In this document: piece after piece, positions 10,523 to 62,240 of the stretch | Layout: each line of letters opens with the position of its first letter | How positions within the stretch are numbered: position 1 is the stretch's first letter | Origin: Flavipsychrobacter sp. | GTDB lineage: Bacteria; Bacteroidota; Bacteroidia; Chitinophagales; Chitinophagaceae | Assembly: GCA_016786565.1 (NCBI GenBank) | Contig: JAEUVY010000031.1 | Coordinates: 62,001 to 126,000 of the forward strand | Length of the DNA: 64,000 nucleotides | Direction: 5' to 3' | Program-made: the position numbers and the translations under genes | Notes under the pieces: model-generated | What the model was told of the DNA's origin: nothing | Databases searched by the model: none | The model's input: only the letters and a program-made list of their open reading frames with translations

Positions 10523-10549
10523 CTAAAGGCGGACAATACAGTGAATGGT

Positions 10550-10557
10550 TACATTTG
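10550..10557 (+). promoter_or_regulatory. -7 promoter box (TACATTTG) of the third NHL gene
   Basis: An exact TAnnTTTG match four bases upstream of the ATG at 10562, back to back with the divergent box at 10515. Both divergent transcripts would have almost no leader. Confidence 0.45.
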
Positions 10558-10561
10558 CAAT

Positions 10562-11860
10562 ATGCTCTGCCGGTTCCTATTGCTGTTCTTTGTCGCTACG
10601 TTGTGTGGTATGCCGCTGCATGCACAACAGATAGTGACGGTGCCGGTACGTTTCTGCGACAGCCATATAGACAGTCTGGCTAATGTGCGCAGTTTCAACG
10701 GCATTGCTATTGATGCACAGGGTGTCATATATGCCACCGAGTGGAACAGCAGCTACATTGTGCGCATTGTGCCGGGCGACAGTTGTGCCGGTGTGGTGCG
10801 GCAGCGGACCGCCGGCGGCCGGTACACGGAGGCGCAGGTGGCTTTCTCTCACGGACTGTGTACCGACCGCAGCGGCAACATCTATGCCACCGAATACAAT
10901 GGCGGCATTGTGCGGAAGATAACACCCGATGGCGCCATGAGCATCGTGGCGGGGACTGCCGGGACCGGTGATCGTCGCGAAGGGGTGCCTGCTACAAACG
11001 CGCAACTGTCGGGGTTGAATATGGTGGTGGTGTCGCCGATGGGTGAGTTGTACCTCTCTGATGAACGCAACCACGTGATCCGCAAGGTGACCAACGATGG
11101 GCTCATCCGCACTGTTGCCGGCACCTACGGCAGCAAGGGCTACAGCGGCGATGGCGGCCCGGCCACCGATGCGCAGTTGCACACGCCCTATGGCCTGGCG
11201 TTGGGTGCCGATGGTAGTCTGTTTATCTCGGATATGCGCAACAATGTGGTGCGCAGGGTGAGTGCCAAGGGGCGCATAACTACCATAGCCGGAAATGGCC
11301 GCCGAGGTTACACGGGCGATGGCGGACCGGCAACGGCCGCCACGCTGAACAAACCCACAGGCATAACACTGGACAGGGCCGGTGATCTGTATATTGCTGA
11401 TGAAGACAACCATGTGGTGCGCAAGGTGACACGGGATGGCATCATCACCACCTTTGCCGGTACCGGTGTGGGGGGCAGAAGCGGCACGGGCATACCCGCC
11501 ACGACAAGTAAATTGTCTAATCCGCGAGATGTGGCCACCGATGATGCGGGTAATCTGTATGTAATAGATTTCAACCGCGATAATCTGAGCCGTATCCATA
11601 AAATAGTGAGCAAGTCACCTGCGGCCGAGGCAACGGTGAACGTATCGGTGAATGCGGACAATGAACTGATAGTTGCCGTGACGGGTGCGGTGTACCACCG
11701 TGCTGTGGTGACCGATGCCCACGGACGTGAGGTGTATAACGCGCCTGTAACTACCGGCACCTTCAGGATAGATGTAAGCGCCTTCGCGCCGGGTATGTAT
11801 TCGCTGCGGCTTTCTGAGGGGGCGGCTACCCACACGGTAAGTTTCGTAAAGTCGGAGTGA
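10562..11860 (+). CDS. Secreted NHL-repeat protein with C-terminal sorting domain
   Basis: About 432 residues from the ATG at 10562. That start gives the signal peptide MLCRFLLLFFVATLCGMPLHAQ; a GTG at 10541 lies upstream of the likely transcription start. Six or so NHL blades follow, for example IRTVAGTYGSKGYSGDGGPA and GDLYIADEDNHVVRKVTRDG. The last ~75 residues resemble a T9SS type A domain (YHRAVVTDAHGREVYNAPV, ending in APGMYSLRLSEGAATHTVSF) but lack the usual YPNP entry motif. It should be a surface-displayed propeller. It is GC-richer and more diverged than the tandem pair at 3609/5027. Binding partner unknown. Confidence 0.82.
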   Translation: MLCRFLLLFFVATLCGMPLHAQQIVTVPVRFCDSHIDSLANVRSFNGIAIDAQGVIYATEWNSSYIVRIVPGDSCAGVVRQRTAGGRYTEAQVAFSHGLCTDRSGNIYATEYNGGIVRKITPDGAMSIVAGTAGTGDRREGVPATNAQLSGLNMVVVSPMGELYLSDERNHVIRKVTNDGLIRTVAGTYGSKGYSGDGGPATDAQLHTPYGLALGADGSLFISDMRNNVVRRVSAKGRITTIAGNGRRGYTGDGGPATAATLNKPTGITLDRAGDLYIADEDNHVVRKVTRDGIITTFAGTGVGGRSGTGIPATTSKLSNPRDVATDDAGNLYVIDFNRDNLSRIHKIVSKSPAAEATVNVSVNADNELIVAVTGAVYHRAVVTDAHGREVYNAPVTTGTFRIDVSAFAPGMYSLRLSEGAATHTVSFVKSE

Positions 11861-11981
11861 CGGGGGGCGGGGTGGTTATGCTTTTCCGGACTGTGCGGCT
11901 TCAATAAGCTGACTGCGCATTTTGCGCATTTTTTTTCTTTTTCCCATTCCTTACTTAGTTCGTTGATCATCAATAAAAATG

Positions 11982-12051
11982 TGAGAAGCAGGTGCGCAAT
12001 CTGCTTCCCACTGCTTCTCAAAACCTGCGCACTTCTTCTCAGGGTGAGAAG
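11982..12051. repeat. Cluster of inverted TGAGAAG/CTTCTCA heptamers
   Basis: TGAGAAG occurs at 11982-11988 and 12045-12051, and its complement CTTCTCA at 12014-12020 and 12035-12041. A TGCGCA pair (11993-11998 and 12026-12031) is nested between them. The RNA could fold into alternative hairpins, or the DNA could bind a protein. Confidence 0.5.
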
Positions 12052-12187
12052 TAAGTAAAAATTGTTATTTGTGCTGCTGCCTTCCATTTTACTCAACTTC
12101 TAATCAAGTTACAACCCTGCGGGAATAGGGAAAAGAGGAAAGTTTTATGAAAGTGAGTTTTCTGTAGTATGACAGATATTCTTTGTT

Positions 12188-12535
12188 GTTCTTTTGCCTT
12201 GATGCAAAAGAACCAAAAAATCAAGGCTGTATAAAAATTGGCTAAAAAATGTCTGCACTCCGCTGCAAAATATAGATATCTATCATTGCTGTGTTCGCTA
12301 CTGAACCTTCGCTACTATCAGCGGAGTGCCATCTACCTCCATAGATTTTGCGGCCGCTACGTTACGTCATTTTTCTTAACGCCATTTTTATAAGGCCGGA
12401 ATTTGAGGTGTGTCGTTATTACTACTGTTTATAGAGCAACCTCAAGACTAACACGTTCCAGACATTTAAAGAAGGGAGCACGACAACCACATCTACGGAA
12501 ATATGAATGCGCCATCAAGAGCTGAGCGTAGTTGC
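12188..12535 (+). repeat. Dispersed non-coding element, copy 1
   Basis: It begins with a perfect 10-bp hairpin (GTTCTTTTGC, 6-nt loop, GCAAAAGAAC) followed by CAAAA. It ends with a 51-base block (12485-12535) that recurs at 51664-51714 with about 44 of 51 identical bases by my count. The middle is weakly similar between the copies. It encodes no protein that I can recognise. Confidence 0.65.
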
Positions 12536-12653
12536 TTTATTGAGCACATCCCGGTAAGTGGGACTCTCGATGCTGCTAATCTATGCGCAGGTTTTATGTT
12601 TTTTGGTTCTCCGGCCTTTGCACTTTCCATCAAGAGCCTTTTTGCAAAAAAAT

Positions 12654-14156: not shown

Positions 14157-14261
14157 TTATGACGGGAGTCACAGCGCGGGTGAGTGACGTGGGGTAATAA
14201 TGGTTCAAAAGTGTAACCAAATTTCAGGACGAGGGAGGTTTATCATACCTCGTTTTCTGCA

Positions 14262-14290
14262 GTATCACAGATTTTCCTTTTGCCGGGGTA
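14262..14290 (+). repeat. Partial copy of the leader of the dispersed element
   Basis: GTTTTCTGCAGTATCACAGA here matches GTTTTCTGTAGTATGACAGA at 12157, and the similarity continues through TTTTCCTTTTGCC. Only the left flank of the element is present. Confidence 0.5.
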
Positions 14291-41116: not shown

Positions 41117-41263
41117 ATGCCCGCTAAAAAAACGAAACCAAGACGTCCATTGGCATTTACAATTATCAGATATTTCATGCTGGTAATTTGTATATCCGTT
41201 GTCCTTTTAGCAATAGTCGGGTTACTAATGAAATATTATAAACTATCTAAACACATTTTTTAA
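41117..41263 (+). CDS. 48-residue single-pass membrane peptide coupled to czcA
   Basis: From the ATG at 41117: MPAKKTKPRRPLAFTIIRYF, then a hydrophobic helix (MLVICISVVLLAIVGLLM) and a basic tail (KYYKLSKHIF). It has a positive N-terminus and one transmembrane helix of about 20 residues. Its stop shares a base with the czcA start (TAATG), so it is translated together with the pump. Small membrane peptides are known to join RND pumps elsewhere (for example AcrZ with AcrB), so a pump-accessory role is a reasonable but unproven idea. An upstream TTG start would add 20 less plausible residues. Confidence 0.6.
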   Translation: MPAKKTKPRRPLAFTIIRYFMLVICISVVLLAIVGLLMKYYKLSKHIF

Positions 41264-44200
41264 TGTTAGACAATATTATCCGCTTTTCCATCAGGAATAA
41301 GCTGATCATTGGCATTCTCACGCTAATGTTGATTGTATGGGGTATTTACTCCCTTGCTCAACTTCCGGTTGATGCCTTACCGGACATAACAAATAATCAG
41401 GTTCAGATTATTACAAAAGCACCTACCCTTGCGGCTCAGGAAGTTGAACAGTTCATTACCTACCCTGTTGAGCGTGCAATGTCTAATCTGCCCGAGATAA
41501 CTGAAATGCGCTCCATGTCAAGGTTTGGACTAAGTGTTATTACGGTTGTTTTTAAAGAATCAACCAATATTTACTTTGCAAGGCAGCTAATATCCGAAAA
41601 GCTGAAAGAGGCAGAGGAGAACATACCCAAAGGAGTTGGGAAACCGGAACTTGCGCCTGTCACAACCGGATTGGGTGAAATATACCAGTATATAATTCAC
41701 CCAAAAAAAGGAAGTGAATCAAAGTATTCTGCAATGGACTTACGGACAATGCAGGACTGGATAGTTTCCCGCCAGTTATATGGCATTGCTGGAGTGGCTG
41801 AAGTAACCGCATTTGGGGGTATAACAAAGCAATACGAAGTGACATTATCTCCTGAAAGGCTAAAAGCGATGAATGTCACTATACCCGAAGTATTCAACGC
41901 CCTTGAAAAAAATAACGAAAACACGGGAGGCGCATATATCGAAAAGAAACCCAATGCCTACTTTATACGTGGTGTCGGCTTAATGGGAAACATAACTGAT
42001 ATTGAGAATACGCTTGTTAAGCAACAAGGGAATGGCATTCCCTTATTCATTAAGGACATTGCAACCGTTAAGTTAGGTTCACCTCCTCGTTACGGTGCTA
42101 TGACCTACAACGGAGAAAAGGAAGTCGTTGGAGGTATCGTATTGATGTTGAAAGGGGCTAACAGCGCAGAAGTTGTCGAAAGGGTAAAAGAAAGGATGCT
42201 TATCATCCAAAAATCATTACCTAACGATGTAACAATTGAAGCTTTTTTAGACCGGACAAACCTTATTGACAGGGCTATCGGAACTGTAAAAAAGAACTTA
42301 ATAGAGGGTGCGCTTATAGTCATATTTGTGTTGGTTGTATTTCTCGGCAATTTAAGGGCAGGTTTAATTGTTGCTTCTGCCATCCCGTTATCATTGCTTT
42401 TTGCACTTGGAATGATGAATCTGTTTGGCGTAAGTGCAAACCTTATGTCATTGGGGGCTATTGATTTCGGGTTAATAGTAGATGGTGCAGTAATAATTGT
42501 CGAAGCGGTAATGCACCATTTAGCAATGCGAAAGACAACGGAGAGGTTATCACAATCACAAATGGATGACGAGGTTTTTCATTCAGCATCACAAATAAGA
42601 AGCAGTGCCGCATTCGGGGAAATAATTATCCTGATAGTCTATATCCCAATTCTTTCACTTGTCGGTATAGAGGGAAAAATGTTCCACCCTATGGCAGAAA
42701 CAGTCTCGTTTGCGATATTAGGCGCACTGATCTTGTCTCTTACTTATATCCCTATGGTTTCAGCACTATTCTTATCGAAAAATCCAAAGACTAAACCTAC
42801 ACTTTCGGACAGAATGATGACATTCTTGCAGAAGAAATATGTGCCAATCCTTAAAGCGGCAATAAAATTAAAAGCAGTTATCATAATATCAGCTTTCGCC
42901 TTGGTGATAATTGCCGTTTTGATTTTCAACCGATTAGGTGGGGAGTTTATCCCTCAACTGGAGGAAGGAGATTATGCCGTTGAATTTGTACTACCTCAAG
43001 GCGCATCCCTGTCTCAGACTATTGAGACAGTAATGCTGGCAGAACGGATGATTAAGATGTACCCGGAGGTAAAGATGGTAGTCGGGAAAACGGGTAGTGC
43101 AGACGTGGCGACGGATCCGATGCCTCCACAGGCTTCAGATCTTATGGTCATCCTGAAAGACAAGAGTGAATGGAGAAAAGGAAAAACCTTTTATGGTTTG
43201 TCGGATGAGATTAGAAAGACGTTGGAGGACATTCCCGGCGTGATCGCAGAACCGAGCCAGCCCATCCAGATGAGATTTAATGAACTAATGACAGGTATTA
43301 AACAGGACGTTGCAGTTAAGATATTTGGCGAAAGTATGGATAGCCTGAATTCCATTGCACAAGAAGTGTCAAATGCGATTAAATCCATACCCGGAATTAC
43401 ACAACCGCAGGTTGAAAAAGTAAGCGGCTTGCCACAGATAACTATAAAATATGACAGGGCAAGAATGGCTAATTATGGATTGACAATAGCAGATGTCAAT
43501 CAGATCATTAGTGCTGCTTTCGCCGGATACAAATCGGGTGTTATTTATGAGAATGAACGAAAGTTTGATTTAGTTGTGAGACTTGACAGCGTAAACCGAA
43601 ATTCAATAGATAATGTAAGTGATCTCTTTATACCTATAAAAGGTGGCAACCAAATACCGCTTTCGCAGGTTGCAAGTGTGGGGTATGAAACAGGGCCAAC
43701 ACAAATAAGCAGGGAAGATGGCAGGAGGCGAATTGTAGTCAGCTTCAACGTAAGCGGAAGAGATGTACGCAGTGTTGTAGAGGATGTACAAAAAGCACTA
43801 ACTAACAAAGTGAAATTACCAATCGGCTACTACTTTACTTATGGAGGTACATTCGAGAACCTGCAAAAGGCTTCTGCCCGTTTAATGATAGCGGTTCCGA
43901 TTGCTTTGCTTTTGATTTTCGCATTGCTCTATTTTACACTTAACTCATTAAAGCAAGCGACTTTAATATTTACTGCCATTCCAATGTCAGCTATAGGAGG
44001 CGTTTTTGCCCTGCTAATGCGTGGAATGCCGTTTTCCATATCAGCAGGTGTTGGTTTTATTGCGCTCTTTGGTGTAGCCGTGCTTAATGGTATTGTATTG
44101 ATCGGAACATTCAACCAATTAGCCAAAGAAGGTTATGACGATATTGTGGCACGAGTAATAGAGGGAGCAAAAATAAGGCTTCGGCCAGTGCTTATGACAG

Positions 44201-45594
44201 CCACTGTAGCCTCATTGGGCTTTTTACCAATGGCACTATCAACAGGAGCAGGGGCCGAAGTTCAAAAGCCATTGGCTACTGTAGTAATAGGTGGTTTATT
44301 GACAGCAACTGTTTTAACCCTTATTGTGTTACCCTTACTGTATATCCTGTTCAACCAGCGCAGAAAGAAAAGCACCATTGCTATTTCCGCTGTAATGTTG
44401 TTCATTCTGTTTTCAAGTCAGGCAAATGCACAAACTACAACAGTACAAACAGAAAAAGTCCGCATATCGTTTGATGAAGCCTATGAGATAGCACTCAGGA
44501 ATAATTTACAACTGCGGAGCAGTGATATTGCAGTGAGCCGTTCCCAAATATTAACAGGCACATCGTTTGACATTCCCAAAACTGGCTTCTTTATAGAAAA
44601 TGAAGACATCAGGCCAACGGACAAACAGGGAATATTAAAAGCAGGTGTTTCTCAAAGTATTAGCTGGCCTGGGATATATGCAGCGCAAAAGAAACTATTG
44701 CAGCAACAGGTAAAATCACTGGAATATACAAAGCAGGTCAGGGTCTTAGAAATTAAACGCAACGTACAAACCGCCTATTACACCCTTTGGTATTATTACA
44801 ACAAACAAGCGTTATGGCAGGAATTAGATAGTATCTACCTTGAATCAGCTACTATGGCCAGACTACGGGTAAGAACAGGAGAAAGTGCAGGTTTAGACAG
44901 TATTGCCGCTAATGCAAAGAGCGGAGAAATTAATAATCAGTTCAAAGCAATTCAGAATGATATTGAAATGCAGCAGGCGGCATTAAATGTCTTGCTAAAC
45001 ACAGACACTCTTTATCTGCCGGAAAATTCCAAACTTGGAAAAATAAAAACGGATATTAACATAGCACCTGCTAATACGCATCCTTTATTACTTGTACAGC
45101 AACAGGCAGTAAATGTTGCCCAGGCTGATGTCAGAGTTGCAAGGTTAGGTTCTTTGCCGGATTTTTCAGGAAGATTTTTCTCTCAGAGTTTATATGGTTT
45201 AGATAATCCATATTCCGGTTTTTCTTTTACAGTAGGCGTACCATTGTTTGGGTCAAGTAATTATAAAAACAAGATCAGGGCAGCAAGGCTGGAGCAGGAC
45301 TACCGGCAAACAATGTTTGATTATGAAGAGCAATCCTTAAATAGTCAGGTACAGCAAGCAATTCAAACATTGGATAAGAGTAGGCAAATGTTGCAGTATT
45401 ATGAAACAACAGGTCTAAAACAAGCCGGAGACATTATAAAGGCTGCAAGCCTTTCCTACAAAGGCGGTGAGATCAGCTTTGCAGAACTTTCTCAGTATCT
45501 AAATCAGGCACTTGATATTCGCAAAAACTATTTGGATATTTTAAATCAATACAATCAGAACGTCATTCAACTTAATTATTTTTTAAATCGCTAA
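41263..45594 (+). CDS. czcA: CzcA/CusA heavy-metal RND pump fused to a CzcC/TolC-type domain
   Basis: 1443 residues. Residues 1 to about 1035 form a heavy-metal-efflux RND permease with the diagnostic TM4 segment AIDFGLIVDGAVIIVEA (D401 and D407), the N-terminal LPVDALPDITNNQVQI and 12 transmembrane helices. A second signal-peptide-like stretch follows at about 1034-1056 (KSTIAISAVMLFILFSSQANAQ). Then comes a ~390-residue outer-membrane efflux protein domain (ISFDEAYEIALRNNLQLRSSD, and later LSYKGGEISFAELSQYLNQA). One polypeptide thus carries an inner-membrane pump and an outer-membrane channel, which would have to be separated by signal peptidase at NAQ. Likely substrates are divalent metals (Zn, Cd, Co or Cu). 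The start overlaps the small membrane peptide, and the adaptor gene begins two bases after the stop. Confidence 0.93.
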   Translation: MLDNIIRFSIRNKLIIGILTLMLIVWGIYSLAQLPVDALPDITNNQVQIITKAPTLAAQEVEQFITYPVERAMSNLPEITEMRSMSRFGLSVITVVFKESTNIYFARQLISEKLKEAEENIPKGVGKPELAPVTTGLGEIYQYIIHPKKGSESKYSAMDLRTMQDWIVSRQLYGIAGVAEVTAFGGITKQYEVTLSPERLKAMNVTIPEVFNALEKNNENTGGAYIEKKPNAYFIRGVGLMGNITDIENTLVKQQGNGIPLFIKDIATVKLGSPPRYGAMTYNGEKEVVGGIVLMLKGANSAEVVERVKERMLIIQKSLPNDVTIEAFLDRTNLIDRAIGTVKKNLIEGALIVIFVLVVFLGNLRAGLIVASAIPLSLLFALGMMNLFGVSANLMSLGAIDFGLIVDGAVIIVEAVMHHLAMRKTTERLSQSQMDDEVFHSASQIRSSAAFGEIIILIVYIPILSLVGIEGKMFHPMAETVSFAILGALILSLTYIPMVSALFLSKNPKTKPTLSDRMMTFLQKKYVPILKAAIKLKAVIIISAFALVIIAVLIFNRLGGEFIPQLEEGDYAVEFVLPQGASLSQTIETVMLAERMIKMYPEVKMVVGKTGSADVATDPMPPQASDLMVILKDKSEWRKGKTFYGLSDEIRKTLEDIPGVIAEPSQPIQMRFNELMTGIKQDVAVKIFGESMDSLNSIAQEVSNAIKSIPGITQPQVEKVSGLPQITIKYDRARMANYGLTIADVNQIISAAFAGYKSGVIYENERKFDLVVRLDSVNRNSIDNVSDLFIPIKGGNQIPLSQVASVGYETGPTQISREDGRRRIVVSFNVSGRDVRSVVEDVQKALTNKVKLPIGYYFTYGGTFENLQKASARLMIAVPIALLLIFALLYFTLNSLKQATLIFTAIPMSAIGGVFALLMRGMPFSISAGVGFIALFGVAVLNGIVLIGTFNQLAKEGYDDIVARVIEGAKIRLRPVLMTATVASLGFLPMALSTGAGAEVQKPLATVVIGGLLTATVLTLIVLPLLYILFNQRRKKSTIAISAVMLFILFSSQANAQTTTVQTEKVRISFDEAYEIALRNNLQLRSSDIAVSRSQILTGTSFDIPKTGFFIENEDIRPTDKQGILKAGVSQSISWPGIYAAQKKLLQQQVKSLEYTKQVRVLEIKRNVQTAYYTLWYYYNKQALWQELDSIYLESATMARLRVRTGESAGLDSIAANAKSGEINNQFKAIQNDIEMQQAALNVLLNTDTLYLPENSKLGKIKTDINIAPANTHPLLLVQQQAVNVAQADVRVARLGSLPDFSGRFFSQSLYGLDNPYSGFSFTVGVPLFGSSNYKNKIRAARLEQDYRQTMFDYEEQSLNSQVQQAIQTLDKSRQMLQYYETTGLKQAGDIIKAASLSYKGGEISFAELSQYLNQALDIRKNYLDILNQYNQNVIQLNYFLNR

Positions 45595-51448: not shown

Positions 51449-51460
51449 GCCCATCCGCTC

Positions 51461-51714
51461 GTACTTTTCTTTTCTGCAGCGAAAAGAAAAGTACCAAAAG
51501 AAAGCGCCGCCTTTTGCCCTACCGCTCCGCGGGGCAAAAGGTCAGCTCTACGCTGTTTCGCAGTTCGCTATGCAACTTCATGGCGCTGGCATCTTTCCTA
51601 CCATCTACCAGATGATGGGGCTACGCACTTGTTGAACTTTCGTAGTACTATTGAAGGTACGGTAACCACATCTACGGAAATATGAAGGCGCCATCAGAGG
51701 CTGAGCTGGGTTGC
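51461..51714 (+). repeat. Dispersed non-coding element, copy 2
   Basis: It begins with a perfect 14-bp hairpin (GTACTTTTCTTTTC, 6-nt loop TGCAGC, GAAAAGAAAAGTAC) followed by CAAAA. It ends with the 51-base block (51664-51714) shared with 12485-12535. Same order and orientation of parts as copy 1, about 95 bases shorter. Confidence 0.65.
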
Positions 51715-51814
51715 AATATCGGGCATAATTTGGGATTTGTCTGGTGAAATGATGTGGAGGGGGACTACCAGGAGATAAGCTCGGGCGTAGCAAACGCAGA
51801 CCGGTAGGAAAGCA

Positions 51815-51840: not shown

Positions 51841-51856
51841 TATGAAAATCTGTAAC

Positions 51857-52108
51857 ATGGGACGAAATACGTCAGTATCCCTGGGGCCTCACTTCGAAAC
51901 CTTTATTGAAGAAAAGGTGAGCGATGGCAGGTATCAAAATGCAAGTGAGGTAATAAGGGCGGGACTGAGATTGCTTGAGGAAGAAGAAAATCGCATTTTA
52001 TTGCTGAGGAGTGCCATAGAGGAGGGAGTGAAGAGCGGTATTGCATCTGATTTTACCCCTGAAACGCTTTTGGATAGATTGAAAGCACAGAAGCGGTCAA
52101 ATGGCTAA
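51857..52108 (+). CDS. parD: ParD-family antitoxin
   Basis: 83 residues from the ATG at 51857 (MGRNTSVSLGPHFETFIEEK). An N-terminal ribbon-helix-helix DNA-binding domain (TSVSLGPHFETFIEEKV, then GRYQNASEVIRAGLRLLEEE) is followed by a C-terminal extension that should wrap the toxin. This is the ParD/CopG type. It neutralises ParE and represses the operon. The palindrome at 51815 is the likely operator. It overlaps the parE start by eight bases. A Met five codons upstream is less likely, since it would lie closer to the promoter box. Confidence 0.92.
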   Translation: MGRNTSVSLGPHFETFIEEKVSDGRYQNASEVIRAGLRLLEEEENRILLLRSAIEEGVKSGIASDFTPETLLDRLKAQKRSNG

Positions 52109-52397
52109 ATACTTCCTGTCCAATAAGGCCGTTAGTGACCTGTCTGATATTTGGGGCTACACCTATGAAACATGGTCTGAGCGGCAAGCTGATAAGTATT
52201 ATTCACTGCTGCTGAACACTTGTAAAGAGTTGGCCAAACACCCGGACATGGGTAAAAGATATGAAAGTGTGTTTCCCGACCTGCGTGGGTGTAGAATAAA
52301 TCAGCACATTGTTTTTTACTTAGTACGAGAAGACGGAATATTTGTTGTGAGAATTCTGCACGGCGGAATGGATCTGAAAAGCCGGCTGAATGAATAG
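52101..52397 (+). CDS. parE: ParE-family toxin
   Basis: 98 residues of the RelE/ParE fold: MAKYFLSNKAVSDLSDIWGY, ETWSERQADKYYSLLLNTCK, HPDMGKRYESVFPDLRG, then VFYLVREDGIFVVRILHGGM. ParE toxins typically poison DNA gyrase, though some relatives act otherwise. Translation is coupled to parD through an eight-base overlap. The protein is full length with no visible inactivating change. Confidence 0.92.
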   Translation: MAKYFLSNKAVSDLSDIWGYTYETWSERQADKYYSLLLNTCKELAKHPDMGKRYESVFPDLRGCRINQHIVFYLVREDGIFVVRILHGGMDLKSRLNE

Positions 52398-62121: not shown

Positions 62122-62129
62122 TATCTTTG
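62122..62129 (+). promoter_or_regulatory. -7 promoter box (TATCTTTG) for the fluoride riboswitch transcript
   Basis: An exact TAnnTTTG match six bases before the aptamer start, so transcription would begin at or just before the riboswitch. Confidence 0.6.
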
Positions 62130-62134
62130 TTGCG

Positions 62135-62191
62135 AAGGTGATGGTGTTCCACCTAATTGAACCGCCGGTGAGCCCGGCTGATGACGCCTGC
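62135..62191 (+). promoter_or_regulatory. Fluoride riboswitch (crcB motif)
   Basis: The conserved crcB/fluoride aptamer pieces appear in order: AGGTGATGGTGTTCCACCT (pseudoknot and first stem), then GAACCGCC, a stem GCCGG/CCGGC, and CTGATGACGCCTGC. These match the established aptamer consensus. It sits about 50 bases before a CLC-F-type exporter gene, which is a classic fluoride-riboswitch target. Fluoride binding should switch the gene on. Confidence 0.92.
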
Positions 62192-62240
62192 AAATAATCT
62201 GGTCGGCCTTATGGGATGACCATAAAACAAGTTTGTAGGT

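Follow-up and report, generated by a model that had tools for sequence, protein, structure and literature searches.

The window, the 64,000-nucleotide stretch analyzed here (positions 62001-126000 of contig C34 of genome G000, an assembly of 3.8 Mb in 133 contigs), holds members of two repeat families, A and B, which are best read as non-autonomous dispersed DNA repeats with a 5′ end module followed by a larger, gene-less structured body. Two features beyond the earlier sequence-only reading of this DNA are central: a pseudoknot joins the loop of the end hairpin to the tail behind it, and in B a third strand is the mirror image of a hairpin arm, an arrangement that occurs in Pseudomonadota as well. 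On the sequence patterns described below, the pseudoknot and the mirror pattern are very probably real, and a triplex is probably what is selected. We tentatively propose that a pseudoknot-locked triple helix may be the selected folded end of an undescribed class of mobile or regulatory DNA element common to Bacteroidota and Pseudomonadota. If this is true, a bacterial intrastrand triplex would be supported by the co-evolution of all three of its strands.

Two repeat families at 12.2 kb and 51.5 kb

The sequence-only reading had described one two-part element present at both sites. The features on which it was built were recovered, namely the perfect hairpins, 10 bp long at 12188-12213 and 14 bp at 51461-51494, with CAAAA behind each, and a common block in the same order and orientation (12485-12546 and 51664-51725; 62 bases, 82% identical, E 2.5e-14). 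A whole-genome search with each site, the check proposed with that reading, found further copies of both, so the idea of a repeated element does not fail for want of copies. The copy inventory rejected the single element all the same: the sites belong to two different repeat families. None of the three element A copies on contigs C56, C132, and C52 is followed by the 51-base block, which is the 3′ end of element B, whose own 5′ half sits at 51.5 kb and on C61, C125, C9, and C131; the weak similarity thought to connect hairpin and block across the two sites was nowhere significant. The 12.2-kb site consists of element A and then a detached 3′ fragment of element B (12485-12546, plus strand; 82% identical to 51664-51725), with weaker similarity to other B copies spanning 12478-12604, and the 51.5-kb site is a full element B. 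C125 carries another detached 3′ end of B, so the 12.2-kb site is not the only place with such a fragment. The suggestion of a MITE-like element or structured RNA of no known family was right in direction (strong structure, intergenic dispersal, no ORF, and no Rfam match) and wrong in taking two families for one; B moreover has no terminal inverted repeats such as a classical MITE carries. No family among the Rfam covariance models was matched by element A or B, and a search limited to the texts of open-access papers found none of the characteristic strings.

Element A (12188-12397, plus strand) joins the end module to a long imperfect stem-loop body. Four copies occur in this genome, 90-91% identical (on C56, C132, and C52 besides the window), with relatives in G022 and G030 and partial ones in G035 and G010; its DNA fold z is −5.25. 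Hairpin P1 (12188-12213) pairs GTTCTTTTGC with GCAAAAGAAC over 10 bp around the loop CTTGAT, and the pseudoknot strand ATCAAGGC (12220-12227, plus strand) complements the P1 loop region GCCTTGAT (12196-12203). Loop and tract read CTTGAT/ATCAAG in most G000 and G022 copies and CTTGAC/GTCAAG in G030, and are mismatched at loci L002, L004, and L089. The body (12225-12397, plus strand), closed by GGCTGTATAAAAATTGGC (12225-12242) with CGCCATTTTTATAAGGCC (12380-12397), is a long stem-loop whose stem is preserved with different sequence in G035 (L082, L086).

Other repeats adjoin element A. Its left flank (12157-12184, plus strand) does recur, as the sequence-only reading had noted, standing alone at 14252-14279 on the same strand (86% over 28 bases); it is not part of one element with A but a third repeat, D, with at least 40 copies of its type in G000. 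Repeat D is of the TATGATAGTGCG..TGGGGTATGATAGAAA type, a separate high-copy dispersed repeat that often adjoins elements A and B. Another dispersed sequence, made of degenerate tandem units like CTTCTCAAAACCTGCGCAC, occupies ∼11940-12080 of the window and flanks several B copies (L029, L030, L032). An NHL-repeat gene (10541-11860) shortly precedes element A in the window. At two G030 loci (L104 and L105, contigs C34 and C41), tandemly amplified NHL-repeat genes with secretion tails alternate with copies of A, and the ordered arrangement of these copies was attributed to tandem amplification with the NHL-repeat gene, not to cassettes.

Element B, in its form with a type I body, spans 51450-51725 (plus strand, as are its parts below). 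This genome has five fairly complete copies plus fragments, 75-88% identical; besides the window copy they include those on C61, C125, C9, and C131 and a fragment on C87, and relatives occur across the genus. Hairpin P1 (51461-51494), in which GTACTTTTCTTTTC pairs with GAAAAGAAAAGTAC over 14 bp around the loop TGCAGC, covaries in relatives. It is followed by the tract CAAAAGAAAG (51495-51504), the putative third strand, which mirrors the P1 3′ arm by a rule taken from asymmetric relatives; the arms of the window copy are nearly symmetric (4,4 vs 4,3). The pseudoknot strand CGCCG (51505-51509) lies opposite CAGCG of the P1 loop, with one A.C position on this strand that is G.T/G.U on the other. 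Hairpin P2 (51510-51541) pairs CCTTTTGCCC with GGGCAAAAGG and has a conserved GCTCCGC in its loop; among 30 distinct variants, its pairs comprise 266 Watson–Crick, 0 G-T, and 3 C-A. Covariance analysis, also proposed with the sequence-only reading, bore out both the P1 hairpin and a helix that reaches into the block: the 5′ strand of the long-range helix P4 (ATGGCGC, 51580-51586) covaries with its 3′ strand (GCGCCAT, 51688-51694) within the 51-base block, the pairs being GCGC/GCGC, GCAC/GTGC, and GTGC/GCAC. A second body (type II) follows the same B 5′ part at other loci. No terminal inverted repeat was found in B. A protein-coding body was rejected on finding no consistent reading frame by eye in the element bodies and no interior-specific ORF in the listed Pseudomonadota pairs.

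Element copies contain inserted short perfect palindromes (CCTGCCTGCCGGCAGGCAGG, TCCCGAATGCTTTCGGGA, and variants), often in hairpin loops or linkers, at L030, L031, and L032 (G000 contigs C125, C9, and C131) and also at L117, L168, and L178; these palindromes, very small and dispersed, appear to be a class of their own. A ParD/ParE toxin–antitoxin pair lies directly 3′ of element B in the window (51842-52397).

Pseudoknot and mirror tract in the end module

The 5′ module shared by A and B consists of the perfect hairpin P1, a short A-rich tract, and a tract complementary to the P1 loop. In B-type modules, loop and tract change in step (TCGCC/GGCGA, TTTC/GAAA, GTCC/GGAC, GCCC/GGGC, GCG/CGC, GCA/TGC, and GGA/TCC). 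Over 33 distinct combinations, the complementary run between loop and tract averaged 4.00, compared with 2.71 for shuffled tracts (maximum 3.30 in 5000). In a gapless alignment of ten modules, 98.9% of the pairs in the hairpin, pseudoknot, and P2 are standard; 37 cells are changed on both sides vs 9.5 in shuffles (0 of 500 as high), and none on one side only. G-T and A-C pairs are nearly absent from the helices. The base of P1 varies among TTAC, GTAC, CTAC, GTTC, TTTC, CTTC, and TCTC.

The A-rich tract of B-type modules repeats the A-run lengths of the P1 3′ arm in reverse, so that arms of (5,3), (3,5), (6,3), (4,5), and (2,4) are followed by tails of (3,5), (5,3), (3,6), (5,4), and (4,2), respectively; TTACTTTTTCTTTGCTTCGCCAAAGAAAAAGTAACAAAAAGAAAGGCGA is an example of such an asymmetric module. 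Among 49 asymmetric modules, 40 have an exact mirror tail, 4 are nearer to the mirror, 5 are ties, and none is direct. Shuffled tails gave at most 19 exact mirrors for the 49 modules in 20,000 trials, a guide and not a probability since the modules are related by descent (13 arm/tail length combinations, 27 arm/tail/loop classes). An independent test in 398 Pseudomonadota genomes found the (4,3) hairpin with a (3,4) tail 14 times, in seven genomes, and with a (4,3) tail 0 times; viral contigs gave 3 mirror and 0 direct cases. Pairing of the tail with the 5′ arm was ruled out because the tails of asymmetric arms are mirrored, not repeated.

DNA copying yields direct or inverted repeats and never the mirror of an asymmetric tract, so the pattern needs another explanation. 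Mirror tracts are the hallmark of intramolecular triplexes, and a third-strand register is the explanation that fits. The strand shown would supply a purine third strand that runs antiparallel to the purine arm, and the complementary strand a pyrimidine third strand parallel to that arm.

Occurrence, inverted pairs, and dispersal

Element B matches turned up in 16 of the 60 genomes sampled (one of them that of the window), all of the same genus as the window. The conserved-core pattern of B identified 99 stretches in 84,980 species genomes, mostly in Chitinophagaceae-related records; core matches in Bacillus, cyanobacteria, and others were unrelated on inspection, and loose-pattern sampling across broad Bacteroidota returned mostly chance matches, with about two likely modules. 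A phage or plasmid element was rejected, the main pattern having 0 matches in viral contigs and the element B of the window 0 in plasmids; at viral contig L213, similarity matches belonged to a neighboring IS3 gene, not to the module. B-like clusters at L106 (G010:C9) and L107 (G002:C5) lie near terminase-like (phage-type) genes and are possibly in prophages.

Most loops of the Pseudomonadota modules read TCGCC and go with GGCGA, which means that these modules too have the pseudoknot. Two inward-facing modules, 394 to 614 bp apart, are carried by 14 of the 20 stretches taken from the seven Pseudomonadota genomes, and each module of these inverted pairs is preceded by an outer GC-rich hairpin. 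Modules stand back to back in two G425 stretches, and the remaining four have one recognized module each (one beside an N run, one near a contig start). The two pairs examined for a gene-like ORF confined to the pair interior had none. Paired ends often differ in arm arrangement, and each end keeps its own mirror tail, as at L231, where a (4,3)/(3,4) end is paired with a (3,4)/(4,3) end; this indicates that structure is maintained rather than end sequence. Named carriers are Variovorax paradoxus VAI-C and Burkholderia cepacia plasmids (a single similar module). Between its A-rich modules, the L231 body (G084) contains G/C-rich CCCTCTCCC..GGGAGAGGG motifs that resemble the published PIT/TM-ECO triplex motif.

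Dispersal among unrelated flanks is clear: the copies are intergenic, with sharp boundaries and flanks that are unrelated within one genome. In the CANFHA genome, copies start ∼12 bp before P1 and stop near CTATCATC, and their flanks are sharply different. Evidence of recent movement is suggestive only. In G000 a ∼170-bp stretch occurs once and carries no B, and in G022 it flanks a B on either side. This is no clean insertion: at the G022 site the left flank continues into another region at a rearranged junction, and because the contigs are moreover from MAGs, the difference between the two genomes is likewise only suggestive. No short target-site duplication was obvious by eye at copy edges. 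Beside the copies we found no recurrent or dominant neighbor gene family, and a linked gene family or integron-like cassettes were rejected for this lack of a recurrent neighbor. Nor was a transposase found linked to the elements. Y1 transposase genes occur in 33 of 35 genomes of the genus and are absent from the B carriers G010 and G018; dependence on Y1/RAYT was thus not supported, Y1 presence not tracking B presence.

Candidate mechanism, alternatives, and known systems

A possible account, which we put forward with reserve, is that the elements are REPIN-like non-autonomous DNA repeats whose single-strand end would fold into a triplex-pseudoknot, with a DNA-mobility mechanism. The element would become single stranded, for example on the lagging-strand template; the exposed end would fold into a hairpin-triplex and be locked by the pseudoknot; and a trans-acting enzyme would recognize the folded end in order to copy the element or move it. 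Recognition of this kind is proposed for REPs/REPINs and established for the ends of IS200/IS605. One strand would form a purine-type triplex (A.A-T, G.G-C) and the other a pyrimidine-type triplex (T.A-T, C+.G-C). A-rich purine triplexes are expected to be weak. Points for a DNA repeat are the mirror counts, helices nearly free of wobble pairs as in DNA inverted repeats, the inverted pairs, and the unrelated flanks; the near absence of G-T and A-C pairs and the inverted pairs argue for DNA.

A structured noncoding RNA transcribed from the bottom strand seems unlikely, even though its topology and register would fit exactly (stem, pyrimidine-rich loop 1, long pyrimidine:purine stem). The module would then be an H-type pseudoknot with which the RNA ends on its 3′ side, its U/C-rich loop 1 occupying the major groove of the long stem (U.A-U, C+.G-C) as in telomerase RNA or SAM-II pseudoknots; it might protect RNA or bind protein, and the copies would perhaps be a multigene RNA family or mRNA 3′ ends. 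RNA can form pyrimidine triplexes and does not form purine ones (Holder et al., PMC4666352), and in two pseudoknot classes a plus-strand A.C corresponds to a bottom-strand G.U, as do three irregular P2 pairs. Against such an RNA stand helices almost devoid of wobble pairs, copies that are dispersed and partly in inverted pairs, the presentation of both polarities by the Pseudomonadota pairs, and the absence of a U-tract terminator after the 3′ end. Gene orientation bias is not significant (27 vs 18, p 0.23), and the bottom-strand RNA fold z is only −1.45 in a model without the pseudoknot.

An element in which the hairpins end or protect the transcripts of neighboring genes, with incidental dispersal, is improbable. 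The outer GC hairpin in Pseudomonadota is followed by the T-rich P1 arm, and L231 and L253 lie between convergent genes, but Chitinophagales elements have no outer hairpin, their orientation to genes is mixed, and a terminator requires neither a mirror tract nor a large covarying body. Slightly less probable still is the absence of any function, in which neutral remnants would keep perfect palindromes through template-switch correction in replication and triplex potential would be a by-product. All P1 changes in the ten-module alignment are two sided with no intermediates, as hairpin-templated correction would give; strand copying, however, cannot yield a mirror repeat, and the mirror is exact in 40 of 49 modules and present in two phyla, which strongly disfavors this view, and the separate P2, P4, and pseudoknot helices covary too. 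Very unlikely, finally, are classical MITEs, that is, elements with terminal inverted repeats and target-site duplications that derive by deletion from a DDE-transposase insertion sequence. The body of A is a long imperfect inverted repeat, size and dispersal fit, and Pseudomonadota elements have inverted end modules; yet B has no terminal inverted repeat and A only an inverted-repeat body, the ends of Pseudomonadota pairs often differ in sequence with each keeping its own fold, and no ORF-bearing or IS relative was found among the loci read.

That bacterial genomes contain triplex-capable sequences is long established. What sets the present elements apart from intrastrand triplex motifs and from REPIN-like repeats is the co-evolving third strand, the pseudoknot lock, and the end position on larger elements. 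The PIT, BoxC, and TM-ECO motifs (ITxF database; Holder et al. 2015, PMC4666352) likewise have a pyrimidine arm, a purine arm, and a purine third tract in one strand, with loops of a few bases; they are dispersed, often intergenic, and occur in inverted configurations too. They are G/C-rich, whereas the modules here are A-rich, with a third tract that follows the arm across diverged genomes, a loop-tail pseudoknot that is unmentioned in PMC4666352, and a place at the end of a 200- to 600-bp structured element. B and the Pseudomonadota modules, with their mirror third tract and loops of 5 to 6 and ∼4 to 5 nt, fall within a sequence definition of the ITxF type (three tracts in triplex register, stems of 6-15, short loops). 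Element A lies outside it, having a pseudoknot yet no mirror tract, which also counts against our preferred reading of a folded, mobile DNA end. In vivo footprinting did not support a triplex at the best-studied bacterial motif (PMC4666352).

REPs/REPINs (PMC3116915; PMC3733652) are also short, structured, dispersed non-coding repeats, found as singlets and inverted doublets with lineage-specific amplification; the inverted-doublet arrangement is seen in the 14 inward-facing Pseudomonadota pairs, and Chitinophagales copies are mostly single. In contrast to REPs/REPINs, the elements here are much larger, with a third strand and a pseudoknot, and have no conserved GTAG/CGTC tag at the P1 base and no RAYT/Y1 gene association that we could find. 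The ends of IS200/IS605 (PMC6006769) have subterminal hairpins that are read as ssDNA, which would explain strand-specific folding without terminal inverted repeats, but our elements have neither a transposase gene nor evidence of cleavage-site pairing. Across diverged genomes, the third strand changes with the other two, the type of evidence that established the helices of tRNA and rRNA; if confirmed, this would give a triplex that occurs in nature and can be tested, and dispersed bacterial DNA would gain an end structure of a new kind.

Elsewhere in the window, a 1443-aa ORF (41263-45594) fuses an AcrB-type efflux pump with a domain of the outer-membrane efflux (OEP) type; an HlyD-type gene and a P-type ATPase come next. 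A fluoride riboswitch (Rfam RF01734, 55.5 bits) lies at 62128-62197.
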